Origin: Leptolyngbya sp. BL0902
GTDB lineage: Bacteria; Cyanobacteriota; Cyanobacteriia; Phormidesmidales; Phormidesmidaceae
Length of the DNA stretch: 64,000 bases
NCBI RefSeq assembly: GCF_016403105.1
Contig: NZ_CP046155.1
Span: 2,447,906 to 2,511,905 of the forward strand
Direction: 5' to 3'
Shown: one piece after another, positions 2,984 through 63,906 of the stretch
How positions within the stretch are numbered: position 1 is the stretch's first letter
Layout: each line of letters starts with the position of its first letter
Position numbers and translations under genes: made by a program
Notes under the pieces: generated by a model
What the model was told of the DNA's origin: nothing
The model's input: only the letters and a program-made list of their open reading frames with translations
The model's database searches: none

Positions 2984-4990
2984 CTAGCCCAGCAGAGCCT
3001 TGGCGCGGCTGACCACGTTTTCTACGGTAAAGCCAAACTTCTCCATCACCAGGCCACCGGGGGCGGAGGCTCCGAAGCGATCCACACCGATGACGTCGCC
3101 TTCGGCCCCCACGTAGCGGCACCAGCCCATGGTGATTCCGGCTTCCACGGCAAGGCGCTTGGTGACGGCCTTGGGCAGCACGGATTCTTGGTAGGCGGCA
3201 TCCTGGGCGTCGAACAGTTCCCAGCAGGGCATGGAAACCACGCGCACCTTGGTGCCAGCGGCCCGCAGTTCCTTGGCGGCATCTACACAGAGGCTGACTT
3301 CGCTACCCGTGCCGATCAGGATCAGGTCAGGGGTGCCCTCGCAGTCATCAACCACGTACGCGCCCTTGGCTACGCCCTCGATGGAGGCACCGGGCAGGTT
3401 GGGCAGGTTTTGACGGCTGAAGGCCATCAGAGTCGGGGTCTTGCGGTGTTCCACGGCCACTTTGTAAGCGCCGGAGGTTTCGGTGCCGTCGGCGGGGCGA
3501 ATCACCAGCAGGTTGGGGATGGCCCGCAGGGAGGCGATGGTTTCCACGGGTTGGTGGGTGGGGCCATCTTCGCCAAGGCCGATGGAGTCGTGGGTCATCA
3601 CATAGATCACCCCGGCTTGGGACAGGGCCGAGAGGCGAATCGCCGCCCGCATGTAGTCGGCAAACACCAGGAAGGTGGCGCAGTAGGGAATTAGGCCAGA
3701 GTTGTGCAGGGCAATGCCGTTACAGATCGCGCCCATGCCGTGCTCCCGAACGCCGAAGCGCAGGTTGCGGTTTTCGTAGCTACCCTTCTGGAAATTGCCG
3801 GAAATCTTCAGTTCCGTCAGGTTGGAGTGGGTGAGGTCGGCGGAACCGCCAATCAGTTCAGGCAGGGCCGGAGCCAGGGCATTCAGGGTGACTTCGGAGT
3901 TCTTCCGGGTGGCCAGAGCCTTGTCTGCGGGGGTGTAGGTGGGCAGGCTGTCGGCCCAACCTTCGGGCAGTTTGCCGGAGAGCATCCGCTCAAATTCGGC
4001 GGCTTCGGCGGCGTACTGGGTGCGGTAGGTGGCAAGGGTAGCTTCCCACTCGGCTTGCAGGCTGGCCCCGCGTTCGACGGCCTTACGCATGTGGTTGAGG
4101 GCGTCTTCGGGAATTTCAAAGTCGCCGTAGCTCCAGCCCAGGTTTTCGCGGGTGAGCTTGATTTCGTCGGCACCCAGGGCGGCACCGTGGACACCGGGGG
4201 TGTCCTGCTTGTTGGGAGACCCGTAGCCGATGGTGGTGGTGACTTTGATCATGGAAGGGCGATCCGTCACAGCCTTGGCAGCTTCGATGGCTTTGGCGAT
4301 GGCGTCCAGGTCGGTGTTGCCGTTTTCGACGTGCTGAACGTGCCAGCCGTAGGCTTCAAACCGCTTGGACACGTCTTCGGTGAAGGCAATGTCGGTGGAG
4401 CCGTCGATGGAGATGTGGTTGTCGTCGTAGAGGGCGATCAGCTTGCCCAGGCCCAGGTGGCCCGCCAGAGAGCAGGCTTCCCCAGACACGCCTTCCATGT
4501 TGCAGCCGTCGCCCAGGATAACGTAGGTGTAGTGGTCTACCAGGGTGGCGTCGGGCTTGTTGAACTTGGCGGCCAGGTGCGCTTCGGCCATGGCCAGACC
4601 CACGGCGTTGGCAATGCCCTGACCGAGGGGGCCAGTGGTGACTTCCACACCGGGGGTTTCAAAGTTTTCGGGGTGGCCGGGGGTGCGAGCGCCCCACTGA
4701 CGGAATTCTTTGATGTCGTCTAGGGTCACGCTGTCGTAGCCCGTTAGGTACAGCAGGGCGTATTGCAACATACAGCCGTGGCCCGCCGACAGCACAAAGC
4801 GGTCGCGGTTGAACCACTGGGGGTTCTTGGGGTTGAACCGCATGAACTTGTCCCACAGCACGTAGGCCATCGGTGCGGCACCCATGGGCAGACCGGGGTG
4901 GCCAGACTTCGCTTTTTCTACGGCATCAATGGCCAAAAAGCGAATGGAATTAATACAGAGTTCTTCCAGGGATTGGGTTGCAACAGCCAT
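2984..4990 (-). CDS. tkt: Transketolase
   Basis: 668 residues, the usual length. Transketolase moves two-carbon ketol units between sugar phosphates with thiamine diphosphate and Mg, and in cyanobacteria it serves the Calvin cycle and the pentose phosphate pathway. The N-terminal domain has S-G-H-P-G-L-P-M-G and the thiamine-binding G-D-G-C-N-M near residue 158. The middle domain has R-F-G-V-R-E-H-G-M. The C-terminal domain ends V-V-S-R-A-K-A-L. It lies downstream of fabF on the same strand, separated by 243 bases that include a perfect TATAAT, so it probably has its own promoter besides any read-through. acpP-fabF-tkt is a conserved order in cyanobacteria. Confidence 0.97.
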
Positions 4991-8026: not shown

Positions 8027-8812
8027 ATGACCCTCAAACGTTCACCGCTGCCAATTTTGACCCTGGTGCATCAGGCCACCTCAAACCCTGGACTGGTGGG
8101 GGCAATTTTGACTGAGATGGGCTATCGCCTGGATATTCGCTGCTTGGCCGTGGGGGATGCGTTGCCGCCTAGCCTCGATCACCACAGTGCGGCCATTGTC
8201 TTTGGTGGCCCCATGAGTGCCAACGATGACCACTTGCCCTTCATCCGCCAAGAATTGGACTGGATTCCGACGGTATTAGCTGCCCAAAAGCCCTATTTGG
8301 GGATTTGCCTGGGGGCGCAGTTGTTGGCCCGCACCCTGGGGGCGAAGGTGGCTCCTCACCCCGATGGCCTGCGGGAGATTGGCTACTACCCGATTGTGCC
8401 CACTCAAATCGGGCGATCCTTTTTGCCCCAGCCGATGATCGTTTACCAGTGGCACCAGGAGGGCTTTGAGATTCCCCACGGGGCTCACCTCCTCGCCAAA
8501 GGACATACCTTTAGCCATCAAGCCTTTGGCTACCAGCGGGCCTTTGGGCTGCAATTTCATCCCGAAATTACCACCACCATGGTCAACCACTGGACAACGG
8601 AAGGGGCCGATCAACTCGCCTACCCCGGTGCCCAAGGCCGTGCCCACCACATCAGCCACCATCGCCTCTATCGGCAATCGGTGGAGGGCTGGCTGCGGCG
8701 ATTCTTAGTCCAGTGGATAGCCGCCCCCACCCAGGCGGAACAGGTCTGGAACCATTACCACCACCCCAGCCATGCCCAGCCCTTGGCCCAGCGGGGAATC
8801 TCCCTGGCCTAG
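8027..8812 (+). CDS. Class I glutamine amidotransferase (GMP synthase-like domain)
   Basis: 261 residues from the ATG. A TTG nine codons upstream is in frame but would add a stretch unlike the family. The triad is Cys94 in G-I-C-L-G-A-Q and His178/Glu180 in Q-F-H-P-E. The oxyanion-type G-G-P-M-S-A loop is also present. Such stand-alone domains hydrolyse glutamine to ammonia or act as gamma-glutamyl peptidases. No synthetase domain is fused or adjacent, so the acceptor substrate cannot be told. It follows the nuclease gene after 160 bases with no shared operon signal. Confidence 0.8.
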   Translation: MTLKRSPLPILTLVHQATSNPGLVGAILTEMGYRLDIRCLAVGDALPPSLDHHSAAIVFGGPMSANDDHLPFIRQELDWIPTVLAAQKPYLGICLGAQLLARTLGAKVAPHPDGLREIGYYPIVPTQIGRSFLPQPMIVYQWHQEGFEIPHGAHLLAKGHTFSHQAFGYQRAFGLQFHPEITTTMVNHWTTEGADQLAYPGAQGRAHHISHHRLYRQSVEGWLRRFLVQWIAAPTQAEQVWNHYHHPSHAQPLAQRGISLA

Positions 8813-9029
8813 CGTTGCAGAATACCGTTATCTGAAGCCACGGTTATAGACATTTCGACTCACTTTGAGACCCCCATGGGTTGGCTTTACAAGGGGCATA
8901 GCCGATTCAGATGTCTTATGACTTATCGAAATTAACGATACGATTCCCTCCCTAAGCGCACTTTTTTGGCGAGGATGGGATTTATAAGGTTAATCGCATC
9001 AATGCCAATGGCTTCTGGGGGTATTCAGC

Positions 9030-12000
9030 ATGGCAAGCATTGACGTTAGGGCATCAATGGATACCCATGGTTCCCGTCGTCCTACGCGGCCTTTCCACAT
9101 CAATCATGCGATTGGGGCGCACAGAATCGCAGATATTGCCCTGCAAATTCGCCAGTCGCTGGATCTGTCCACCATTTGGCAAACTACCGTGGATGCGGTG
9201 CAACAGGTCTTGGACTGTGATCGCGCCCTGCTTTACCAGTTTGCCGCTGACAAGAGCGGCCAAGTCGTGGTTGAGGCGGTGGCAGATCCGCAATGGTCGA
9301 TTTTGGGGCAAACCGTCCACGATGTTTGCTTTGAGGCTAGCTGGCTAGAACCCTACGACGAGCGGCAGGTGCGGGTCATCGTCGATGTCGCCACTGCTAA
9401 CCTCACTCCCTGCCATGCCGAGTTTTTGGCGGGGTTTCAGGTCAGGGCCAACCTGGTGGTTCCGGTGCTGTGCGAGTCGCGGTTGTGGGGTCTGCTGATG
9501 GCCCATCATTGCGCTGCGCCCCGCAACTGGTCGTCTGAGGAAATAGCGAGTGTGCAACAGCTTGCGGTTCAGGTGGGTATTGCCATTCAGCAGGCTAATC
9601 TGGTGGCCCAACTGCAAGCCGCCAAGGCTGACCTAGAGGCTCAGGTCGCAACCCGCACCGCCGCCCTAGAGCAGGCCAACCAGCAACTCGCCGCCGAGAT
9701 TGCCGACCGCAAGGCGATCACTGCCGACCTCCAGCAGCGGGAGGGATTTTTGCGCCAGGTGCTCGATAGCCTGTTTACCTTTGTCGGTGTGTTGACCCCC
9801 GATGGCACGTTGGTGGAAGCCAACCAGGCTCCTCTAGATCTAGCGGGACTTACCCGCGAGGATGTGGTGGGAAAGCCCTTTGCCGAGGCTTACTGGTGGG
9901 CCTACTCGACCGTGGCTCAGGATCGAATTCGAGCGGCGATTGCCCAAGCCAACCAAGGCCAAGCGGTGCGGCTTGATATTGAGGCCCAGGTGCGAGGGGG
10001 CCATTTTCTGACCATCGACTTCTCGCTTAACCCCCTCCGCGATGTCACGGGGCGCATTACCCATCTGATTCCTTCCGGGGTTGATATTACCCAGCGCAAA
10101 CAGGCCGAAGCCAACCTGCGGGCCAGCGAAGCCCGGTGGCAATTTGCCCTAGAGGGCTCCGGCGATGGCGTTTGGGACTGGAATACCCAGACCAACACCG
10201 TATTTTTCTCGCGCCAGTGGAAGGCCATGCTGGGCTATGGCGAAGATGAGGTTAGCAATAGTTTAGATGAGTGGAGTAGCCGAGTTCACCCCGATGATTT
10301 AGAGCAATGCTATGCCGATTTGCAGCGCCATTTCAGTGGCGAAACTCCCCTTTATCAAAATGAACACCGGGTGCGTTGCAAAGATGGTAGCTATAAGTGG
10401 ATTCTTGACCGGGGTAAGGTGATCGAATGGGCTGAATCTGGTGAGCCATTGCGCGTGATTGGTACCCATAGCGATGTCAGCAATCGCAAACAGATAGAAC
10501 TTGATCTGAAAGCCACAAACGAAGAACTGGATCAATTCTTCTCGGTTGCCCTTGATCTACTCTGCATCGCCGATGCCGATGGGTGTTTTCGTCGCCTCAA
10601 CCAACAATGGCAACAGACGTTAGGGTATTCCCTCGCTGAGCTAGAAGGAGCCCGATTCTTAGACTACGTTCATCCAGAGGATTTGTCGGCCACCCTGGAG
10701 GGGTTAGGTCACTTGGCCAACCAGCAAGCGGTCAATCAGTTTACCAATCGCTATCGGTGCCAAGATGGCTCCTACCGTTGGATCGAGTGGCACTCCGTAC
10801 CCGTTGGCAACCTCATCTATGCCGCCGCCCGCGATATTACGAATCGCCGACAGGCCGAACTCGACTTAAAACAAGCCAAGGAACAGCTTGACTTGGTGCT
10901 TCAAGCTTCATCGGAAGGGTTCTCTGACTGGAATGTACTCACTAACGAAATCTACTTTTCTCCCCAGTTCAAGCAAATGCTGGGCTACGCAGAGCATGAA
11001 TTTGAAAATTCCTTAGCCATGTGGAATTCCGTTATCTTTGAGGAAGATAAAGAAGCCGCCTGGAAATTAGTAGAGGACTACAATAACGGCATTGTTGATA
11101 ATTTTTCAATGGTTCAACGATATCATCATAAGGATGGCTCTATTGTTCATTTTCTAACCAATGCCATCCACTTAAAAGATGCTGAGGGGCAAGTGGTGAG
11201 AATGGTGGGTAGCTATCTAGACATTACCCCGATAATCACCCTGCAAGAGGCCCTAAAAACCTCGGAAATGCAGCTCGAAAGCGTCTTAGATAGCTCCCTC
11301 GATGGCATTATGGCGTTTCGCTCGGTGCGCGATGACGAGGGCACCATCGTTGACTTTGAGTGGCTCTTGAGTAACCCAACGGCCTGCGAACTAGTGGGGC
11401 GCACCGAGGCCTATCTCGTAGGTCAGCGGCTGCTCGAAGAAATGCCGGGTAATCGCGAAGAAGGGCTTTTTGATGGCTATGTCCATACGGTCGAAACTGG
11501 CGAACCCTACCATCGAGAATTTCACTATAGCCATGATGGTATCGAGTCTTGGTTTGAAACTATTGCCGTCAAGCTCGGCGATGGTTTTGCAGTTACCTTC
11601 CGCAATGTCACCACCCTGAAGCAGTCGGAGCAAAAGCTACAACAGGTTAACCAGCAGCTCGAAGACCGGGTCGCCGATCTGGATCAACGCCATGCTGAAA
11701 TGCTGATCCTGAGCGAAATCAGCGACTTTCTCCAAGCCTGCTCCACGGTGGAAGAAGCCTGCCACACCATTACCAACCTGGTCGCCGCCCTCTTCCCTGA
11801 CTGTGCCGGGGGGATTTTTATCACCCGCGCATCACACAATCGCTTGGAAATGGTGAGCGGTTGGGGTGACGCCCTCCCCTCGAAGACCGATTTTGAACCC
11901 CATCACTGTTGGGGGCTACGCCGGGGGCGGATGCACTACGTGGGCCAAGATCGCCTGAGCCTGCGCTGCCACCACATTCCAGCCGATGCCGCCCTAGAGA

Positions 12001-12668
12001 CGACCCTCTGCATCCCGATGATGGCCCAGGGCGAGACCCTGGGGCTGTTGCACCTCAGCACGGCAACACCGGGAAGCTTGCCCGAACCCAAGCAGCAGCT
12101 CGCCCGCACCCTGGCGGAGCAGGTGGGCATGGCGATTGCCAACCTCAAACTGCAAGAAACCCTCCGCCACCAGAGCATCCGCGACCCGCTGACCGGGCTC
12201 TACAACCGCCGCTACCTGGAAGAAATGCTCACCCAAGAGATCGTGCGCGCCCAGCGCAAACAGCACGCCCTTGGGGTGATCCTGCTCGACATCGACCATT
12301 TCAAGCAGTTTAACGATACCTTTGGCCACGATGCTGGCGATTGTGTGCTGCAACAGGTCGGAACTCTCCTGAGAGAGAATGTACGCAATTCTGACATTGC
12401 CTGCCGCTATGGGGGCGAAGAAATGATCCTGATCCTGCCGGAGGCCAACTTAGCGGAAACCTCCGACCGGGCCGAAATGCTACGAGTCGCGATTAGCCAA
12501 CTGTGCCCCCACCATCACGGGCAGAGCCTAGGCACCATCACCGCATCCTTGGGCGTTGCGGCCTTTCCCCACCATGGCCACACCGTCGAAGCCCTGATCA
12601 AAATCGCCGACGAGGCACTCTACCAGGCTAAAACGGCGGGTCGCAATCAAGTTTTTAGCCCTGCGTAG
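9030..12668 (+). CDS. Multi-sensor diguanylate cyclase: CBCR-like GAF, five PAS, GAF, GGDEF
   Basis: 1212 residues, no membrane segment. The N-terminal GAF (about 38-185) has D98-V-C100-F and C128-H129, the two cysteines of DXCF cyanobacteriochromes, exactly 28 residues apart. It also has V-R-A-N-L-V-V-P and L-W-G-L-L. A coiled coil (about 190-240) leads to five PAS-type domains (about 245-355, 365-490, 500-620, 620-745, 750-870), a second GAF (about 895-1040) and a GGDEF domain (about 1045-1210). The cyclase signature is G-G-E-E-M at 1128-1132. The inhibitory RxxD site (R-N-S-D) lies five residues before it. It should make cyclic di-GMP from GTP, probably under blue/green light; light sensing is inferred from the cysteines. 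The gene stands alone. Confidence 0.88.
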   Translation: MASIDVRASMDTHGSRRPTRPFHINHAIGAHRIADIALQIRQSLDLSTIWQTTVDAVQQVLDCDRALLYQFAADKSGQVVVEAVADPQWSILGQTVHDVCFEASWLEPYDERQVRVIVDVATANLTPCHAEFLAGFQVRANLVVPVLCESRLWGLLMAHHCAAPRNWSSEEIASVQQLAVQVGIAIQQANLVAQLQAAKADLEAQVATRTAALEQANQQLAAEIADRKAITADLQQREGFLRQVLDSLFTFVGVLTPDGTLVEANQAPLDLAGLTREDVVGKPFAEAYWWAYSTVAQDRIRAAIAQANQGQAVRLDIEAQVRGGHFLTIDFSLNPLRDVTGRITHLIPSGVDITQRKQAEANLRASEARWQFALEGSGDGVWDWNTQTNTVFFSRQWKAMLGYGEDEVSNSLDEWSSRVHPDDLEQCYADLQRHFSGETPLYQNEHRVRCKDGSYKWILDRGKVIEWAESGEPLRVIGTHSDVSNRKQIELDLKATNEELDQFFSVALDLLCIADADGCFRRLNQQWQQTLGYSLAELEGARFLDYVHPEDLSATLEGLGHLANQQAVNQFTNRYRCQDGSYRWIEWHSVPVGNLIYAAARDITNRRQAELDLKQAKEQLDLVLQASSEGFSDWNVLTNEIYFSPQFKQMLGYAEHEFENSLAMWNSVIFEEDKEAAWKLVEDYNNGIVDNFSMVQRYHHKDGSIVHFLTNAIHLKDAEGQVVRMVGSYLDITPIITLQEALKTSEMQLESVLDSSLDGIMAFRSVRDDEGTIVDFEWLLSNPTACELVGRTEAYLVGQRLLEEMPGNREEGLFDGYVHTVETGEPYHREFHYSHDGIESWFETIAVKLGDGFAVTFRNVTTLKQSEQKLQQVNQQLEDRVADLDQRHAEMLILSEISDFLQACSTVEEACHTITNLVAALFPDCAGGIFITRASHNRLEMVSGWGDALPSKTDFEPHHCWGLRRGRMHYVGQDRLSLRCHHIPADAALETTLCIPMMAQGETLGLLHLSTATPGSLPEPKQQLARTLAEQVGMAIANLKLQETLRHQSIRDPLTGLYNRRYLEEMLTQEIVRAQRKQHALGVILLDIDHFKQFNDTFGHDAGDCVLQQVGTLLRENVRNSDIACRYGGEEMILILPEANLAETSDRAEMLRVAISQLCPHHHGQSLGTITASLGVAAFPHHGHTVEALIKIADEALYQAKTAGRNQVFSPA

Positions 12669-12675
12669 CGGATGG

Positions 12676-13065
12676 ATGCAGGTGTACCAGCGCCCGAACC
12701 AGGCGGGACAGGTGATGCCCTCGGAGGACACCGTGCTCTATCCCGATGACCGCCTAGTGGTGCTGGCCTCCATCAGCGGGTTGCGCCGTATTGAACAACA
12801 CCAACTGGCGACCAAAACCTGGGGTATTGAAGTGCAAGCCGCGCTGACGGCTGATGCCCGCTTCGACGGAGCCTCCGAAATTGCCCGCATTACTGGGCTC
12901 AACTTGGGCCTAGCCCGTCAGTTCATGGCCCAAATTCCAGGACAACTGCCCCAGCCCCTCTACCACCACCAAGCCCTGCGGTTGGTGCGACACCTGCACC
13001 GTGTCCAAGTCAAGGCGCAGATGATTGCCACCCCAGCCTCCCCTAGTAGCGAATTTGTAGGGTGA
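12676..13065 (+). pseudogene. 5'-truncated remnant of a TrkA-C/RCK-type potassium channel gene
   Basis: The 129-residue frame begins eight bases after the diguanylate cyclase stop and has no ribosome site. Its first part (P-S-E-D-T-V-L-Y-P-D-D-R-L-V-V-L-A) looks like a TrkA-C ligand-binding domain, and the rest like the C-terminal tail of cyanobacterial NAD-binding potassium channels. Membrane and NAD-binding parts are missing. The same frame continues a few codons back into the end of the cyclase gene (F-L-A-L-R-S-G), also TrkA-C-like, so the break point probably lies inside that gene. There are no internal stops, so truncation may be recent. The 3' end overlaps the SIMPL gene by 23 bases. 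Confidence 0.6.
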
Positions 13066-13789
13066 CGCTGGCCTGTACCGTTTGTTCGCCGCCGATGATG
13101 GGGGTGGAGTAGTCCGCCGAGGCGCTGGCCATTTCTGCCCGCCGCAGCATGGGTACGGGGATCGGGGCATTGGCCCCATTAATTTGGATATTGACAATTT
13201 CCTGTGGCCCCAGGTTGAGGGCGCGGAGCACGGTGTTGGCCTGGGTTTGGGCATCGTTGACGGCCTCCCGCAGGGCATTCTGACGAGCTGTCTCTAGGAC
13301 GGCGTCATCGGCCACAAAGCTAATTCCTCGGATTTGGTTGGCCCCTACATTGACGGCGTCATCGAGGATGGAACCCATGGCCTCGGTGGGCACCTGAAAG
13401 CTCACGGTGTTGCTGCCCGTATAGCCAATCATCTCGGTTCGTCCGTTTTCGTAGTTATAGCGGGGATTGAGCTGCACCCCCGTCGTTTCCAGCTTTTCCA
13501 CATTGCGCGACCGCAGCAGTTCCACCACCGCTGTGGATCGTCGCGCCACCTCCCGCTGCACCGTGGCGGCATCGGTGCCCTCCACATCCACCCCCAGGGA
13601 AACTTGGGCCTTGGTGGTTTGCACAGACACTTGCCCCTGCCCGGTGACGGTAAGGGTACGCAGGACAGTTTCTTGGGCCATGGCGGTGGGGGTGAAGAAG
13701 GGGGTAAACACAAAACCGGAGGCAAGGGCCGCTGAGGTGAGCAGGGCGGCGGTCAATTGTTTGGGGGCTAAGCGAGCTAAGGGCTTCAC
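13043..13789 (-). CDS. Exported SIMPL-domain (DUF541) protein
   Basis: 248 residues. A signal peptide of about 38 residues ends A-M-A before Q-E-T, so it is exported. The remainder is one SIMPL domain: it begins T-L-T-V-T-G-Q-G, has S-L-G-V-D-V-E-G, and ends with beta-rich V-Q-A-S-V-T-L-Q-I. Family members are periplasmic or outer-membrane proteins linked to oxidative stress, but their activity is not defined. It converges on the channel remnant. Confidence 0.85.
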   Translation of the reverse strand: MKPLARLAPKQLTAALLTSAALASGFVFTPFFTPTAMAQETVLRTLTVTGQGQVSVQTTKAQVSLGVDVEGTDAATVQREVARRSTAVVELLRSRNVEKLETTGVQLNPRYNYENGRTEMIGYTGSNTVSFQVPTEAMGSILDDAVNVGANQIRGISFVADDAVLETARQNALREAVNDAQTQANTVLRALNLGPQEIVNIQINGANAPIPVPMLRRAEMASASADYSTPIIGGEQTVQASVTLQIRY

Positions 13790-13911
13790 AATCTCAAAAC
13801 CTCACAGGGATATTAGGAGCTTCGAGTCCTAATCTGCCACGGGCCAGGGCCGTCCCCATCGTTGTTACCGAATTCGATACATCCCTAGGGAATCTTGTGA
13901 AAAGCGTCTGG

Positions 13912-59244: not shown

Positions 59245-61452
59245 TTAGGGGGCGGTGGGCAACTGGTTCAGGCGGTGGGTGATGGCTTCGGCGGGGAGAG
59301 GACGGGCAAAGTAGTATCCCTGACCAACAGGGCAGCCCATGTGAAGGAGCTGCTGGCGCTGGTAGTCGGTTTCTACGCCTTCGGCTACGACCTGCATTCC
59401 CATGCCCTGGGCCAGGTTGAGGATGGCGCGAATGATGCCTAGGGCTTCGGGTTGGGGCGCATCGGGCTGCATTTTGCCGACAAAGGACTGATCAATTTTC
59501 AGAACATCTACCGGAAAGCGGTGCAGGTAGCTGAGGGAGGAGTAGCCTGTGCCAAAGTCGTCGAGGCTGATTTGGATTTGCCGTTGGCGGAGGCTGGCTA
59601 GCACTTGGGCGGTGTGGGCGGTGTCGTCGATGAGGGCGCGTTCGGTAATTTCGAGGTGTAGGAGGGCAGGGTCGAGGGAGGTTCCGGCCAGCACTTGGTC
59701 GAGGGTGTCGAGAAAGTCGGCCCGCTGGAGCTGCTGGCTGGCCACGTTCACGCTAGCGTAGAGGGCGCGGTCGGGAAACTGGCGATGCCAGCGCTGCAAC
59801 TGGTGACAGGTGGCCCACAGCATCCATTCGCCCACGGCCTGGATGAGTCCAGCCTCCTCGGCGATGGGGATAAATATCTGGGGGCTAATCATGCCTCGTT
59901 CGGGGTGGGGCCAGCGGGCTAGGGCTTCTACCCCCAGCCATCGTCCGGTAGCTAAGTCTACCTGGGGCTGGTAATACACCTGAAGCTGATCGGTTTCAAT
60001 GGCCTGCCGCAGGTCATGCTCTAGGGTGAGGCGATGCAGCATTTCCTGGTGCATTTCTGGGTCAAAGACCTCGTAGCAGGCACGACCTCGGCTTTTGGCC
60101 CGGTACATGGCGGTGTCGGCATCGCGCAAAATTTCGCTGCCGCTGCGGTAATAGCCTGCTGACCAAACAATGCCAATGCTGGCACTGATGACCACCGACT
60201 GATCTTCGAGGGAGATGGGATGGGCTAAGCCAGTTTGGATGGCGGTGGCCATATCAATAGCGCTAGTGATGTCGTCGAGGTCGGGCAGCAGCAGGGCAAA
60301 TTCATCGCCGCCCCAGCGGGCTAGGGTGTCAAAGGGGCGCAGGTATTGGCTCAGGGTGTTTACCACAGAGCGCAGGAGGTGATCTCCGGCACCGTGGCCC
60401 AGGCTATCGTTGATGAGCTTGAAGCGATCAATGTCGATAAACAGCACCGCAAAGGATCGGGGCGCTTTGCCCTGGTGCAGGGCGTAGTCTACCCGCTCCA
60501 TAAACAGGGTGCGATTCGGCAGTTGGGTGAGGTCATCGTAGAGGGCTTGGTGCCGCAGTTGGGCCTCCACCCGCACTCGCTCCGTCACGTCCCGCGAGAC
60601 CGTTTGTACCTGCACCAGGCGACCCCGTTCGTTGAGGATGGGCTTGGCCAGGGTTTCGAGCCAGAGGTCGTCGCCGGAGGCCCGCACGGCCCGGTAGACG
60701 ATCTGGGCCATGGTTTGGGGGGGGCGCAACGCCTCAATCTGCAACCGCACCCGCTCCCGGTCGTCGGGATGGACTAGGTCATAGAACACTTGGCCCAGCA
60801 GTTGGTCGGCGGTATGACCCAACAGCCCCAAACAGGAAGGACTAACGTAGATAAAGCGCCCCTGACGGTCGTGGAGACCCACCAAATCGCTGATGTTGTC
60901 CGCCACTAGGCGATAGCGCAGCTCCGAGTCTCGCAGGTCTTTCTCAATGCGCTTGCGTTCCTCCACCTCCTGGCTGAGGATGCGGTTAGCCTCCGCTAAT
61001 TCGGCGGTACGTGCCTGCACCTGCTGCTCTAGGGTTTGATTCATCTGCCGAATGGTGCGCTGGGCCGATTGAAGCGCCAACTGATTTTTGACCCGCACCA
61101 GCACCTCATCTAGCTGGAAGGGCTTGGTAATGTAGTCTACGCCCCCGACCCCAAAGGCTTGTACCTTGTCGATGGAATCTCCTAGGGCGCTGAGGAAAAT
61201 CACAGGCACCTCCTGGGTAGTGGGGTGGGCCTTCAGTTGCCGACAGACCTCGTAGCCATCCAGCCCCGGCATCCGAATATCCAGCAATACCAGGTCTGGG
61301 GGCTCGGCCTGGGCTGCCCGCAGGGCCATCGCACCATTTACCACCCCGCGCACGTCATAGCCTTGGTTGGCCAGCGCCGCAGACAGCACTCGCAAGTTCT
61401 CTGTGGTGTCATCCACAATCAGGATGATCGGATTCTCTTCCGGCTGCGTCAC
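59245..61452 (-). CDS. Response regulator with PAS, GGDEF and EAL domains
   Basis: 735 residues, GTG start. Receiver domain (about 9-125) with phospho-acceptor Asp58 in L-L-D-I-R-M-P and T-K-P. A coiled coil and PAS domain (about 175-295) follow. GGDEF (about 305-465) has intact G-G-D-E-F at 381-385 and the inhibitory R-P-F-D at 372-375. EAL (about 475-728) has E509-A-L, N-V-A-S-Q, E-I-T-E, D-D-F-G-T-G and V-A-E-G-V-E-T, all catalytic groups. It could both make and break cyclic di-GMP. Its first 44 bases lie inside the end of the upstream kinase gene, so it is almost surely that kinase's output. Confidence 0.93.
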
Positions 61453-63745
61453 GCCCTTGCTCTACCCATTCGACAATTTTGTCACAACGAAAATCTTCTA
61501 CCCAGCGGCGTAGGGTCAGAGCCAAGGGCTGACGGTCGTGGGGCAACGCCTCCAGCAAGGCATAGAGGGCTTGGCTATTGGCTACCATTGCGGCTTTGTA
61601 CAACTCCGCTACCCAGTCGGCGGGCAGACCCGTGCAGTCTAGGTTGGGGGATCCTGGAAGCAGCGAAGCTGAAGGGCCGGGATCCGTAGAGGGCGTTGGA
61701 TCGGCATAGAGATAGCGTACCCCAAGATGTTGTTGGATAGCCTCCAGCAGGTCGTTCTCCCGCAGGGGCTTGCGGAGGAAGCGGTCGCAGCCGCTGGCCA
61801 AGGCCACGGATTCCTCTTCGTCAAAGGCACTGGCACTGAGGGCGAAGATCACAGGCTGGGCCTCCCCTGCCATGGATCGAATGGTCTGGCTGGCTTGGTA
61901 GCCGTCCATGCGGGGCATTCGCAGATCCATCACAACCAGGTCGGGCCGCCATTGCTGCCACTGGGCCACGGCCTCCTGGCCATCCCCTGCCCCCTTCACC
62001 ACAAAGCCGAGGCTGCCCAGCAGCACCATCATCAATCGCTGGTTGGTTTCATTGTCATCGGCAATCAGCACACGCGGCACGGGTTGATCGGGGGCGAGGG
62101 CCACCACCTGATCCACCAGGGTACGGGGCTTGAGTTCCACTTGGTTGACCGCGACCACGGGCAGATCGAGGTAGAAGGTGCTGCCCTGGGGGCCAGATTC
62201 GGCCAGGGTAAGATCGCCCCCTAACAGGTGGGCAAAGCGACGACTGAGGGCCAGCCCCAGCCCTGTACCATCCTGGCGGGTGCGGCCTGTATCGGTTTGG
62301 GAGAAAGGCTGAAACAGGCCTGGAATCTGATCGGCGGCAATACCGGGGCCGCTATCGGTGACGCAAAAGCGCAGCAGTGGCGGACAGGCCGTGGCATCGG
62401 CCCAGGTGACGACGAGGGAGACGGTGCCCGCCGGGGTAAATTTTAGGGCGTTATCCAGCAGATTCAGCAAAATTTGCTGGAGCTTGCCAGAATCACTGCG
62501 CAGGTAGGGGGGTAAGCCATCCTCGATCTGAAAGGTAAGCCTGATGCCCTGGGCGTTGGCGCGGGGCAGCAGCATGTCGATCAACTGCTGCACCAGGTCT
62601 GGCAGGCTGAAGGCGCTGGTAATCAGACTCATTTGGCCCGCCTCAATTTTGGCCAGACTGAGGATGTCGTTGATCAGGCTGAGGAGGTATTCGCCGCTGT
62701 GGGCAATGGTAGATAGGTGATCTTGGGTATCGTTGGGCAAGCGGCGGTCGCGGCGCAGGAGTTGGGCATAGCCCAGAATGGCGTTCAGCGGCGTCCGCAG
62801 TTCGTGGCTCATGTGGGCGAGGAAGTCGCTCTTGGCCCGGTTCGCCCGCTCCGCCGAGTCCTTCGCCTGCTGGGCCTGATCCAGCAGGGTAATTTGGTAG
62901 AGGGCCAACCCCAAATGGTGGGCCACCTGGGTCATGAGGGCGATGTCGTCAGGCAGCCAGCGACGCGGGCCAGCATTTTGGTAGACGCTCAGCAATCCCC
63001 ACAGCCGCTCCTGCTGAAAAATCGGCACAATGGCGTAGGCCCGCACCTGGAACTGTTCCAAAATGTCGATGTGGCAAGGGGTATGGCCACTCAGGTAAAT
63101 GTCGTCAACGGCGAAGGTTTCCCGGTTTTGGTAGCGTCCCCCCTGGTGTTCTTGCAGATAGGTATCGGCCCACACCGTGCGCCGTCCCTCTCCCACTAGC
63201 GACAGCCACCCCGCCGCCACCGACTCGGCCACGAAATGACCACTCCAGTCCTCCTCAAAGCGGTACACCGACGCCCGGTCGCAGTTCAATAGGTGCTGGA
63301 GTTCCTGGGTAGCAATGGTGAAGATATCTTGCAGGTCAAAGCTTTGGCGTAGCCGATCTACCAACCGCCCTAGGGCTTTCTCCCGTTCAATTTGGTGCTG
63401 AAGCCTCAGCTCTGCCCGTTTATAGCGGGTGATGTCGCGCCCCACCGCCTGGATTTCTGCCAGTTGGCCCTGATGGTCAAACTGGCCGTGGTTGTACCAC
63501 TGCTGCCAAAGCACATCGCCGCTGGGGGTTTGAATACGGGTTTCGTGGTTGAGGGAAGCATGATCCGCTGTAATCGTCATGACATTGAGGTCTGGCCAGC
63601 CGTCTAGGCTTTGGCTCAGATGGGGCGGATCGGCCAAGGACTCGGGGTTGGCGGGGTCGCAGCCAAAGTATTGACCATAGGCCGCGTTGACATAAACCAC
63701 CGTGCCATCCGCCCGAAACCGACAGACCAATTCGGACTGGCTCAT
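61409..63745 (-). CDS. Hybrid histidine kinase with CBCR-like GAF: PAS, GAF, HisKA, HATPase, REC
   Basis: 778 residues from the ATG; a TTG 23 codons earlier is in frame but GGAG lies before the ATG. PAS (about 3-105), then a GAF domain (about 125-285) with W192-A-D194-T, G-G-R-Y, C224-H225 and L-W-G-L-L. That signature matches red/green cyanobacteriochromes; the DXCF cysteine is absent. HisKA has His314 ([10 protein letters not shown]), then an ATPase domain, a receiver (V-V-M-D-L-R-M-P), and a C-terminal helical region that may be an Hpt-like remnant. Chromophore binding is inferred. It overlaps the GGDEF-EAL regulator gene by 44 bases. Confidence 0.9.
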
Positions 63746-63906
63746 CTGTCGTTGCTCTCCACCATGAGGATTAGGGTTCTGTATGTAATCTAGATTACCT
63801 AAGTTAGCCCCCAACCTAACGAGACTCTCCCCTGCATGACCACTAACCCCAGGCTGTCTTCATCACCCAGTTAATCTTGGCCCTGGGGTCAATTTTGACC
63901 ACCGTT

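Follow-up and report, generated by a model that had tools for sequence, protein, structure and literature searches.

The locus described here raises the question whether a single cyanobacterial protein may couple a bilin-binding sensor at its N terminus to a diguanylate cyclase at its C terminus, and how a light signal could be transmitted through the long series of domains in between. The window, i.e. the whole stretch of 64,000 nucleotides from Leptolyngbya sp. BL0902 that was analysed, contains an open reading frame (ORF) of 1212 residues at 9030-12668 on the forward strand, which begins with an ATG start codon. The following features were assigned to it.

9030-12668, + strand: ORF of 1212 aa, GAF1 (DXCF-type cyanobacteriochrome, CBCR)-PAS x5-GAF2-GGDEF (Pfam, NCBIfam, own PAS HMM)
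9120-9605, + strand: GAF1, DXCF-type CBCR GAF domain, residues 31-192 (matches to PDB sequences, trees, AlphaFold2 model)
9321-9332, + strand: DXCF motif D98-V99-C100-F101 with the second cysteine C100 (alignment to DPCF of TePixJ)
9411-9416, + strand: C128-H129, canonical bilin-attachment cysteine position (aligned to CH of TePixJ)
9606-9731, + strand: long helical linker from GAF1 to the first PAS domain (modelled portion is a helix; lengths in relatives)
9732-10103, + strand: PAS 1, residues 235-358 (PAS HMM built in this analysis)
10131-10493, + strand: PAS 2, residues 368-488 (Pfam and own PAS HMM)
10521-10853, + strand: PAS 3, residues 498-608 (own PAS HMM)
10881-11234, + strand: PAS 4, residues 618-735 (own PAS HMM)
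11268-11624, + strand: PAS 5, residues 747-865; last PAS, constant across the family and assigned to class A (PAS HMM, module classes)
11700-12149, + strand: GAF2, residues 891-1040, with C960, H969, C980 and H982 (Pfam GAF_2 at 905-1037, conservation)
12156-12656, + strand: GGDEF domain, residues 1043-1209 (Pfam 1050-1207)
12384-12425, + strand: I-site R1119-N-S-D1122 and active-site motif G1128-G-E-E-M1132 (motif reading; same pattern in relatives)

Domain organisation of the protein

The original prediction, made from the sequence alone, had placed five PAS domains and a second GAF domain between the sensor and the GGDEF domain. Indeed, Pfam (two GAF stretches), NCBIfam (five 'sensory_box' stretches) and the PAS HMM made in this analysis (five PAS domains) agree on this layout. 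The sensor had been drawn at 9030-9600; the domain itself covers about 9120-9605 and extends a few bases further. The GGDEF domain reaches 184.4 bits (Pfam cut-off 23.8), and its sequence combines the signature-type GG(D/E)E motif (GGEEM) with an RxxD I-site (RNSD), which suggests a diguanylate cyclase. The active-site motif reads GGEEM instead of GGDEF or GGEEF, the fifth letter M departing from the name-giving F.

In GAF2, C960-W and C980-x-H982 (residues 960-982, 11907-11976) are invariant (each C, C and H in 28/28 proteins) and H969 is kept in 23/28. This site could have a metal or redox role; a single weak match to a PDB sequence (E 0.007) was obtained for the domain. LOV-type flavin sensing in the PAS array was considered and rejected by a pattern test: [NG][CA]RF[LM]Q does not occur in the protein, and therefore no LOV-type photosensor is proposed. 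A scan of 8700-13900 for promoters and terminators gave no excess over shuffled sequences (2 vs 2.3; 7 vs 5.5).

The first GAF domain as a dual-cysteine cyanobacteriochrome

D98-V-C100-F and C128-H129 are both present in GAF1 as predicted, and the DPCF and CH motifs of TePixJ align at the same places, with the two cysteines 28 residues apart. Some relatives have CY in place of CH. The flanking motif VRANLVVP is also common to both proteins; LWGLL, which had been expected to match as well, reads LFGLL in TePixJ. A phmmer search against PDB sequences returned 6oap (6.3e-38), miRFP670nano (2.5e-34) and TePixJ (3vv4, 1.4e-29), so the domain is matched far above chance. An AlphaFold2 model of GAF1 based on 28 aligned sequences (mean pLDDT 89.7, pTM 0.86) resembles 6oap (Z 24.1), TePixJ 3vv4 (Z 22.0; Foldseek E 2.9e-15) and other TePixJ entries (Z about 22). 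Bacteriophytochrome GAF folds match the model equally well (e.g. 6ndo, Z 23.4); thus, the model supports a bilin-GAF fold rather than the CBCR class.

For the phylogenetic placement, GAF sequences were taken from the genome itself (22 matches at E <= 0.001), from 57 related genomes, of which 53 gave a match at E <= 1e-30, from the best 80 of 557 confirmed loci and from named references, and were included at E <= 1e-15 if they spanned about 140 query residues and contained no stop. Among the sources, genome G138 carries a GAF that is 100% identical to the TePixJ PDB sequence and therefore serves as the Thermosynechococcus reference; G142, the source of a Cph2-like protein (by eye), carries a GAF 93% identical to Slr1393g3. 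From 183 rows, 13 were dropped (5 named rows and 8 near-copies from L147 and L149). In the resulting 170-row tree, for which the four columns of the DXCF motif had been deleted, GAF1 falls within a 16-row set (SH-aLRT 95), in which DXCF is present in 14/16 and the canonical cysteine in 16/16 rows. A 60-row tree without the DXCF and CH columns places GAF1 in its own 15-row clade (99/92). Two GAFs from Xenococcaceae lie closest to this clade (17 rows together, 99/95), and their proteins look by eye like GAF-PAS-PAS-histidine kinases. Both trees group GAF1 with CBCR GAFs over other GAFs, so an alignment outside the CBCR clade, which had been named as the result that would speak against the prediction, was not obtained. 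In the 60-row tree, 4 of the 13 rows entered as outgroup landed among the CBCRs: L175 is a red/green CBCR and the other three, GAF2 included, lie on long branches. The original prediction of a dual-cysteine, DXCF-type CBCR GAF heading a GGDEF protein is supported.

Two narrower assignments of GAF1 were rejected. The proposed match to the TePixJ class holds for motif and fold; it does not hold for lineage, since TePixJ belongs to another supported clade (4 rows, 100/98). An XRG-type GAF with a re-gained cysteine was likewise discarded: GAF1 has V96-x-D98-x-x-F101 and no WXDXXL, V96 replacing the W, and the XRG rows form a separate clade (100 in the 170-row tree; 5 rows, 100/99 in the 60-row tree). 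None of the characterised domains placed in the trees falls into the GAF1 clade, and the colour of GAF1 is not readable from a characterised neighbour because the deep CBCR branches lack resolution.

Predicted photochemistry and signal transmission

The genome has two matches to heme oxygenase and one to ferredoxin-bilin reductases, the latter being scored by NCBIfam as phycocyanobilin:ferredoxin oxidoreductase (PcyA; 361.7 bits, cut-off 206). Because heme oxygenase and PcyA are encoded, synthesis of phycocyanobilin is possible. As outlined in PMC11284453, typical DXCF GAF domains bind phycoviolobilin and convert between blue and green: the second cysteine adds to C10 of the bilin, phycocyanobilin is converted to phycoviolobilin, and a blue dark state and a green photoproduct result. 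The colours of GAF1 are assigned on the grounds that DXCF domains typically behave in this way, and blue/green-type light control of c-di-GMP, as originally predicted, is the likeliest function suggested by the sequence of the protein.

We consider it probable, with room for doubt, that the protein is a homodimeric photoreceptor-enzyme, in which the bilin-bound dual-cysteine GAF1 gates the GGDEF domain via a coiled-coil spine of PAS and GAF2 domains. In such a homodimer, GAF1 would bind phycocyanobilin through C128 and probably turn it into phycoviolobilin. C100 would add reversibly to C10 of the bilin, and the adduct would give a short-wavelength (blue-type) dark state and the photoproduct a longer-wavelength (green- or teal-type) form. 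The signal might leave GAF1 by its exit helix, travel down the spine that the stacked PAS dimers build together with GAF2, and finally gate c-di-GMP synthesis in the paired GGDEF domains. The central part of this spine, adjustable in length, would consist of the PAS modules, which may bring further inputs. In this scheme, we infer bilin attachment, colours, dimerisation, the direction of the response and enzyme activity; observed are the sequence with its motifs, the clade, the fold of the model, the genes for bilin synthesis, the conserved ends, the order of the modules and the grid of linker lengths. SesA and the CBCR of Cph2 are given as blue-activated cyclases in Table 1 of PMC8846402, and by analogy with both we infer that blue light would switch the cyclase on and green light would switch it off. 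Moreover, the intact RxxD I-site would limit the output by product inhibition, by analogy with SesA, for which such inhibition and the R676A exchange are described in PMC5871770.

It is rather unlikely that GAF1 is a photoactive dual-cysteine CBCR of other colours, either because phycocyanobilin is kept or because residues around the D-ring retune the photoproduct. The position of GAF1 in a clade with none of the characterised domains placed in the trees would fit such a deviation, as would the statements in PMC11284453 that single pocket residues alter bilin isomerisation and colour and that DXCF domains are spread over several lineages; however, the same source describes the blue/green phycoviolobilin type as the typical one, and the replacement of the XRG tryptophan by V96 also speaks against it.

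A family of predicted cyclases with an ordered set of PAS modules

Relatives were gathered both by GAF1 and by the C-terminal PAS-GAF2-GGDEF block, which was found in 22/386 sampled cyanobacterial genomes at E <= 1e-120, and their sequences were read completely wherever the available DNA permitted. All complete GAF1 proteins begin with GAF1 and end with the same block. Their lengths range from 969 to 2168 aa and the detected PAS domains from 3 (L055) to 12 (L053), where low counts may be one short because the HMM misses a few weak modules; with five PAS domains, the window protein is among the shorter versions. One relative (L054, genome G055) probably carries an insertion: from 4214 on, its GAF1 frame stops after the first PAS domain, and sequence that looks transposase-like by eye follows in other frames.

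The PAS modules were classed by identity at 45, 48 or 52%. In 28 proteins (L216, L220, L229, L054 and L059 being left out), the order of class pairs co-occurring in at least two proteins is consistent in 64/64, 64/64 and 65/65 cases, respectively, and free of cycles. A first set comprised 13 of 14 classed proteins, without the incomplete L054; in L052, a unit wrongly called within GAF1 was also omitted. Here, 37/37 pairs agree and none of 2000 within-protein shuffles was acyclic, a test that ignores relatedness and is inflated by shared ancestry. The simplest reading of these sequences is one ancestral ordered deck of PAS modules, from which whole modules have been lost or into which they have been inserted.

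From the D of the DIT motif in the constant PAS to CW in GAF2 there are 101 residues in 29/29 proteins, and from the GAF2 cysteine to GGEE there are 168 in 22, 167 in 4, 165 in 1 and 180 in 1 protein (none found in 1). The helix from GAF1 to the first PAS domain, measured in 20/23 GAF1 proteins (L218-L220 have no anchor), occurs in eight distinct lengths: 63, 66, 73, 76, 80, 84, 87 and 101. These lengths, which were tested instead of the 20 proteins because the proteins share ancestry, fit a period of 3.5 residues (R 0.864), a value that about 1 in 10,000 random sets of eight lengths reaches. Only this period stands out among the nine tried, and period 7 alone gives 0.46, no better than random. 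Among 38 non-redundant PAS-PAS linkers, 19 are 28, six are 35 and one is 42 residues long, i.e. 26/38 are multiples of 7; the others measure 24, 30, 31, 34 and 41. A clean heptad rule, expected at first for the PAS-PAS linkers, was abandoned since 3.5 fits best (R 0.713) and 6 as well as 7 (0.617 and 0.616). A coiled-coil repeat averages 3.5 residues, and hence the lengths fit a helical spine with kept phase. Both the conserved order and the steps in linker length point to a coiled-coil relay that depends on helical phase and whose middle part is modular.

Sensor exchange and decay

A GAF1-like start is present in 23 proteins, with DXCF in 18/23 and a cysteine in the canonical column in 21/23, one of which (L218) belongs to a degenerate GAF. 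Two relatives with the canonical CH have a tryptophan instead of the second cysteine (L052, DPWS, 3223-3699, + strand; L057, DSWF, 4339-4812, - strand). These are two separate changes on the tree of the C-terminal block, which was calculated without L051 because its GGDEF domain is cut short, and by sequence both proteins are natural second-cysteine mutants. Judging from the motif, tryptophan at this place is also found outside the family: a GAF encoded elsewhere in the genome (L005, 1501-1980, - strand) has DPWS at the DXCF position and is devoid of the canonical cysteine.

The family also bears on the idea that GAF1 is photoactive, with the main control over the cyclase lying in the PAS modules or in GAF2 and light only tuning it or being uncoupled from it. 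Indeed, the C-terminal block exists under other heads: CBS domains (L217; L224 of the same genome, with 4 CBS stretches), PAS domains alone (L225, L227, L228 and L226 of the same genome) and a phytochrome region with GAFs (L216, PHY by Pfam). The Leptolyngbya genome itself has at least three copies of the block, each behind a different head (the window protein, L224 and L226), and a protein with dCache and HAMP regions (L229) has only the GAF2-GGDEF part in common. Furthermore, between 3 and 12 PAS domains stand beneath the same sensor, and L218-L220 carry a relic GAF1 above the same block. However, 20 proteins have retained a GAF1 with the canonical cysteine, and a 3.5-residue grid of linker lengths would be pointless if sensor and enzyme were decoupled, so we regard such control as improbable. 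That GAF1 of the window protein is itself a relic without bilin binding is very improbable, since all motif residues are present, relatives at 79-83% identity retain DXCF and the genome encodes phycocyanobilin synthesis, even though L218, L219 and L220 lost DXCF and the latter two also the canonical cysteine.

Returning to the light-gated homodimer, the family as a whole suggests an extension, which we put forward tentatively and with less confidence than the scheme itself: a length-variable, phase-locked light relay, in which a DXCF sensor and a PAS-GAF-GGDEF block are fixed, the PAS deck between them (3-12 modules) is ordered and exchangeable, and the receptor is tuned or blinded by gain or loss of PAS modules or by Cys-to-Trp exchange. 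If so, the signal of a photon would cross one to two thousand residues via in-register coiled-coil steps.

Neighbouring loci in the window

Seven bases past the cyclase stop codon, an ORF of 129 aa (12676-13065, + strand) corresponds to the C terminus of proteins with matches in 22/28 genomes; in most related genomes, these lie in frames of about 690-750 aa, whereas the frame here has 155 aa. The ORF thus resembles the remaining 3' part of a TrkA-type transporter gene that has been truncated; TrkA_C scores 23.6, below the Pfam cut-off of 27. A search of the same genome, made without a control, gave no match to the N-terminal part of such a transporter.

The window contains a second CBCR at 61412-63814 (- strand), a hybrid histidine kinase with a C-terminal receiver, whose red/green-type GAF (WADTYL) matches 6bhn (1.6e-59) and AnPixJ 3w2z (2.2e-56). 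Directly downstream and with overlapping ORFs lies a gene for a receiver-PAS-GGDEF-EAL protein (59248-61452, - strand). Together, the two genes at 59248-63814 likely form a two-component system by which red/green light acts on c-di-GMP; they lie about 50 kb away from the gene for the DXCF cyclase.

Comparison with known light-regulated cyclases

DXCF-type CBCRs that drive GGDEF domains are already known. As far as the open-licence literature shows, the new aspects are a distinct GAF1 clade fixed at the N terminus of PAS-array cyclases, the ordered deck and the 3.5-residue grid; a search limited to open-licence papers found none on such a DXCF-GAF/PAS-array cyclase family. If the sensor controls the cyclase, the family would be a natural series with constant sensor and enzyme and a relay differing by whole PAS modules, by which mechanical transmission, register and the input of individual PAS domains in long arrays could be tested. 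The Cys-to-Trp members and the proteins in which another sensor heads this C-terminal block would then be ready-made controls. Moreover, a cyanobacterial genome of filamentous type, which has 37 matches to GGDEF, would gain a light input.

For comparison, three proteins of G138 (L163, L162 and L161) were used, which we take from their architecture to be SesA-, SesC- and SesB-like, respectively; L161 consists of GAF, GGDEF and EAL. SesA (Tlr0924), represented by L163, combines a DXCF-type CBCR GAF with a GGDEF domain as the window protein does, and both have SILGQxxHDxCF in common. However, L163 (777 aa) is arranged as CBS-PAS-GAF-GGDEF with a single PAS upstream of its GAF and the sensor directly before the cyclase, an order that does not apply to the GAF-PAS x5-GAF-GGDEF window protein. 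It also has a Tyr after the canonical cysteine where GAF1 has a His, and its GAF is found elsewhere in the tree, pairing with a Coleofasciculus GAF (94/82 in the 60-row tree). The relay had been predicted to be much longer than in known CBCR-GGDEF proteins. This is true when compared with SesA and its one PAS domain; it is not true for the SesC-like L162, which has a CBCR, five PAS domains (5 sensory_box stretches) and GGDEF, like the window protein. The relay is indeed long, yet other proteins have relays of this kind, and a relative of the window protein even has 12 detected PAS domains. L162 differs in having an additional EAL domain and a sensor that is not N-terminal: by eye, four of its PAS domains precede the CBCR and one follows.

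The C-terminal CBCR of Cph2, represented by the Synechocystis-like L168, is also a DXCF GAF that feeds a GGDEF domain; there, the GAF stands directly before GGDEF and behind an EAL domain, and it occupies another place in the tree than GAF1. TePixJ (3vv4, 4fof, 4glq) shares the fold and the cysteine spacing with GAF1, whereas its output is of the chemotaxis type. PadC, which stands for the phytochrome-activated diguanylate cyclases, presumably differs in its PAS-GAF-PHY sensor, in the use of biliverdin and in the lack of a PAS array linking sensor and cyclase. Like the protein proposed here, it is a bilin photosensor that drives a GGDEF domain via a coiled coil, as listed in Table 1 of PMC8846402.
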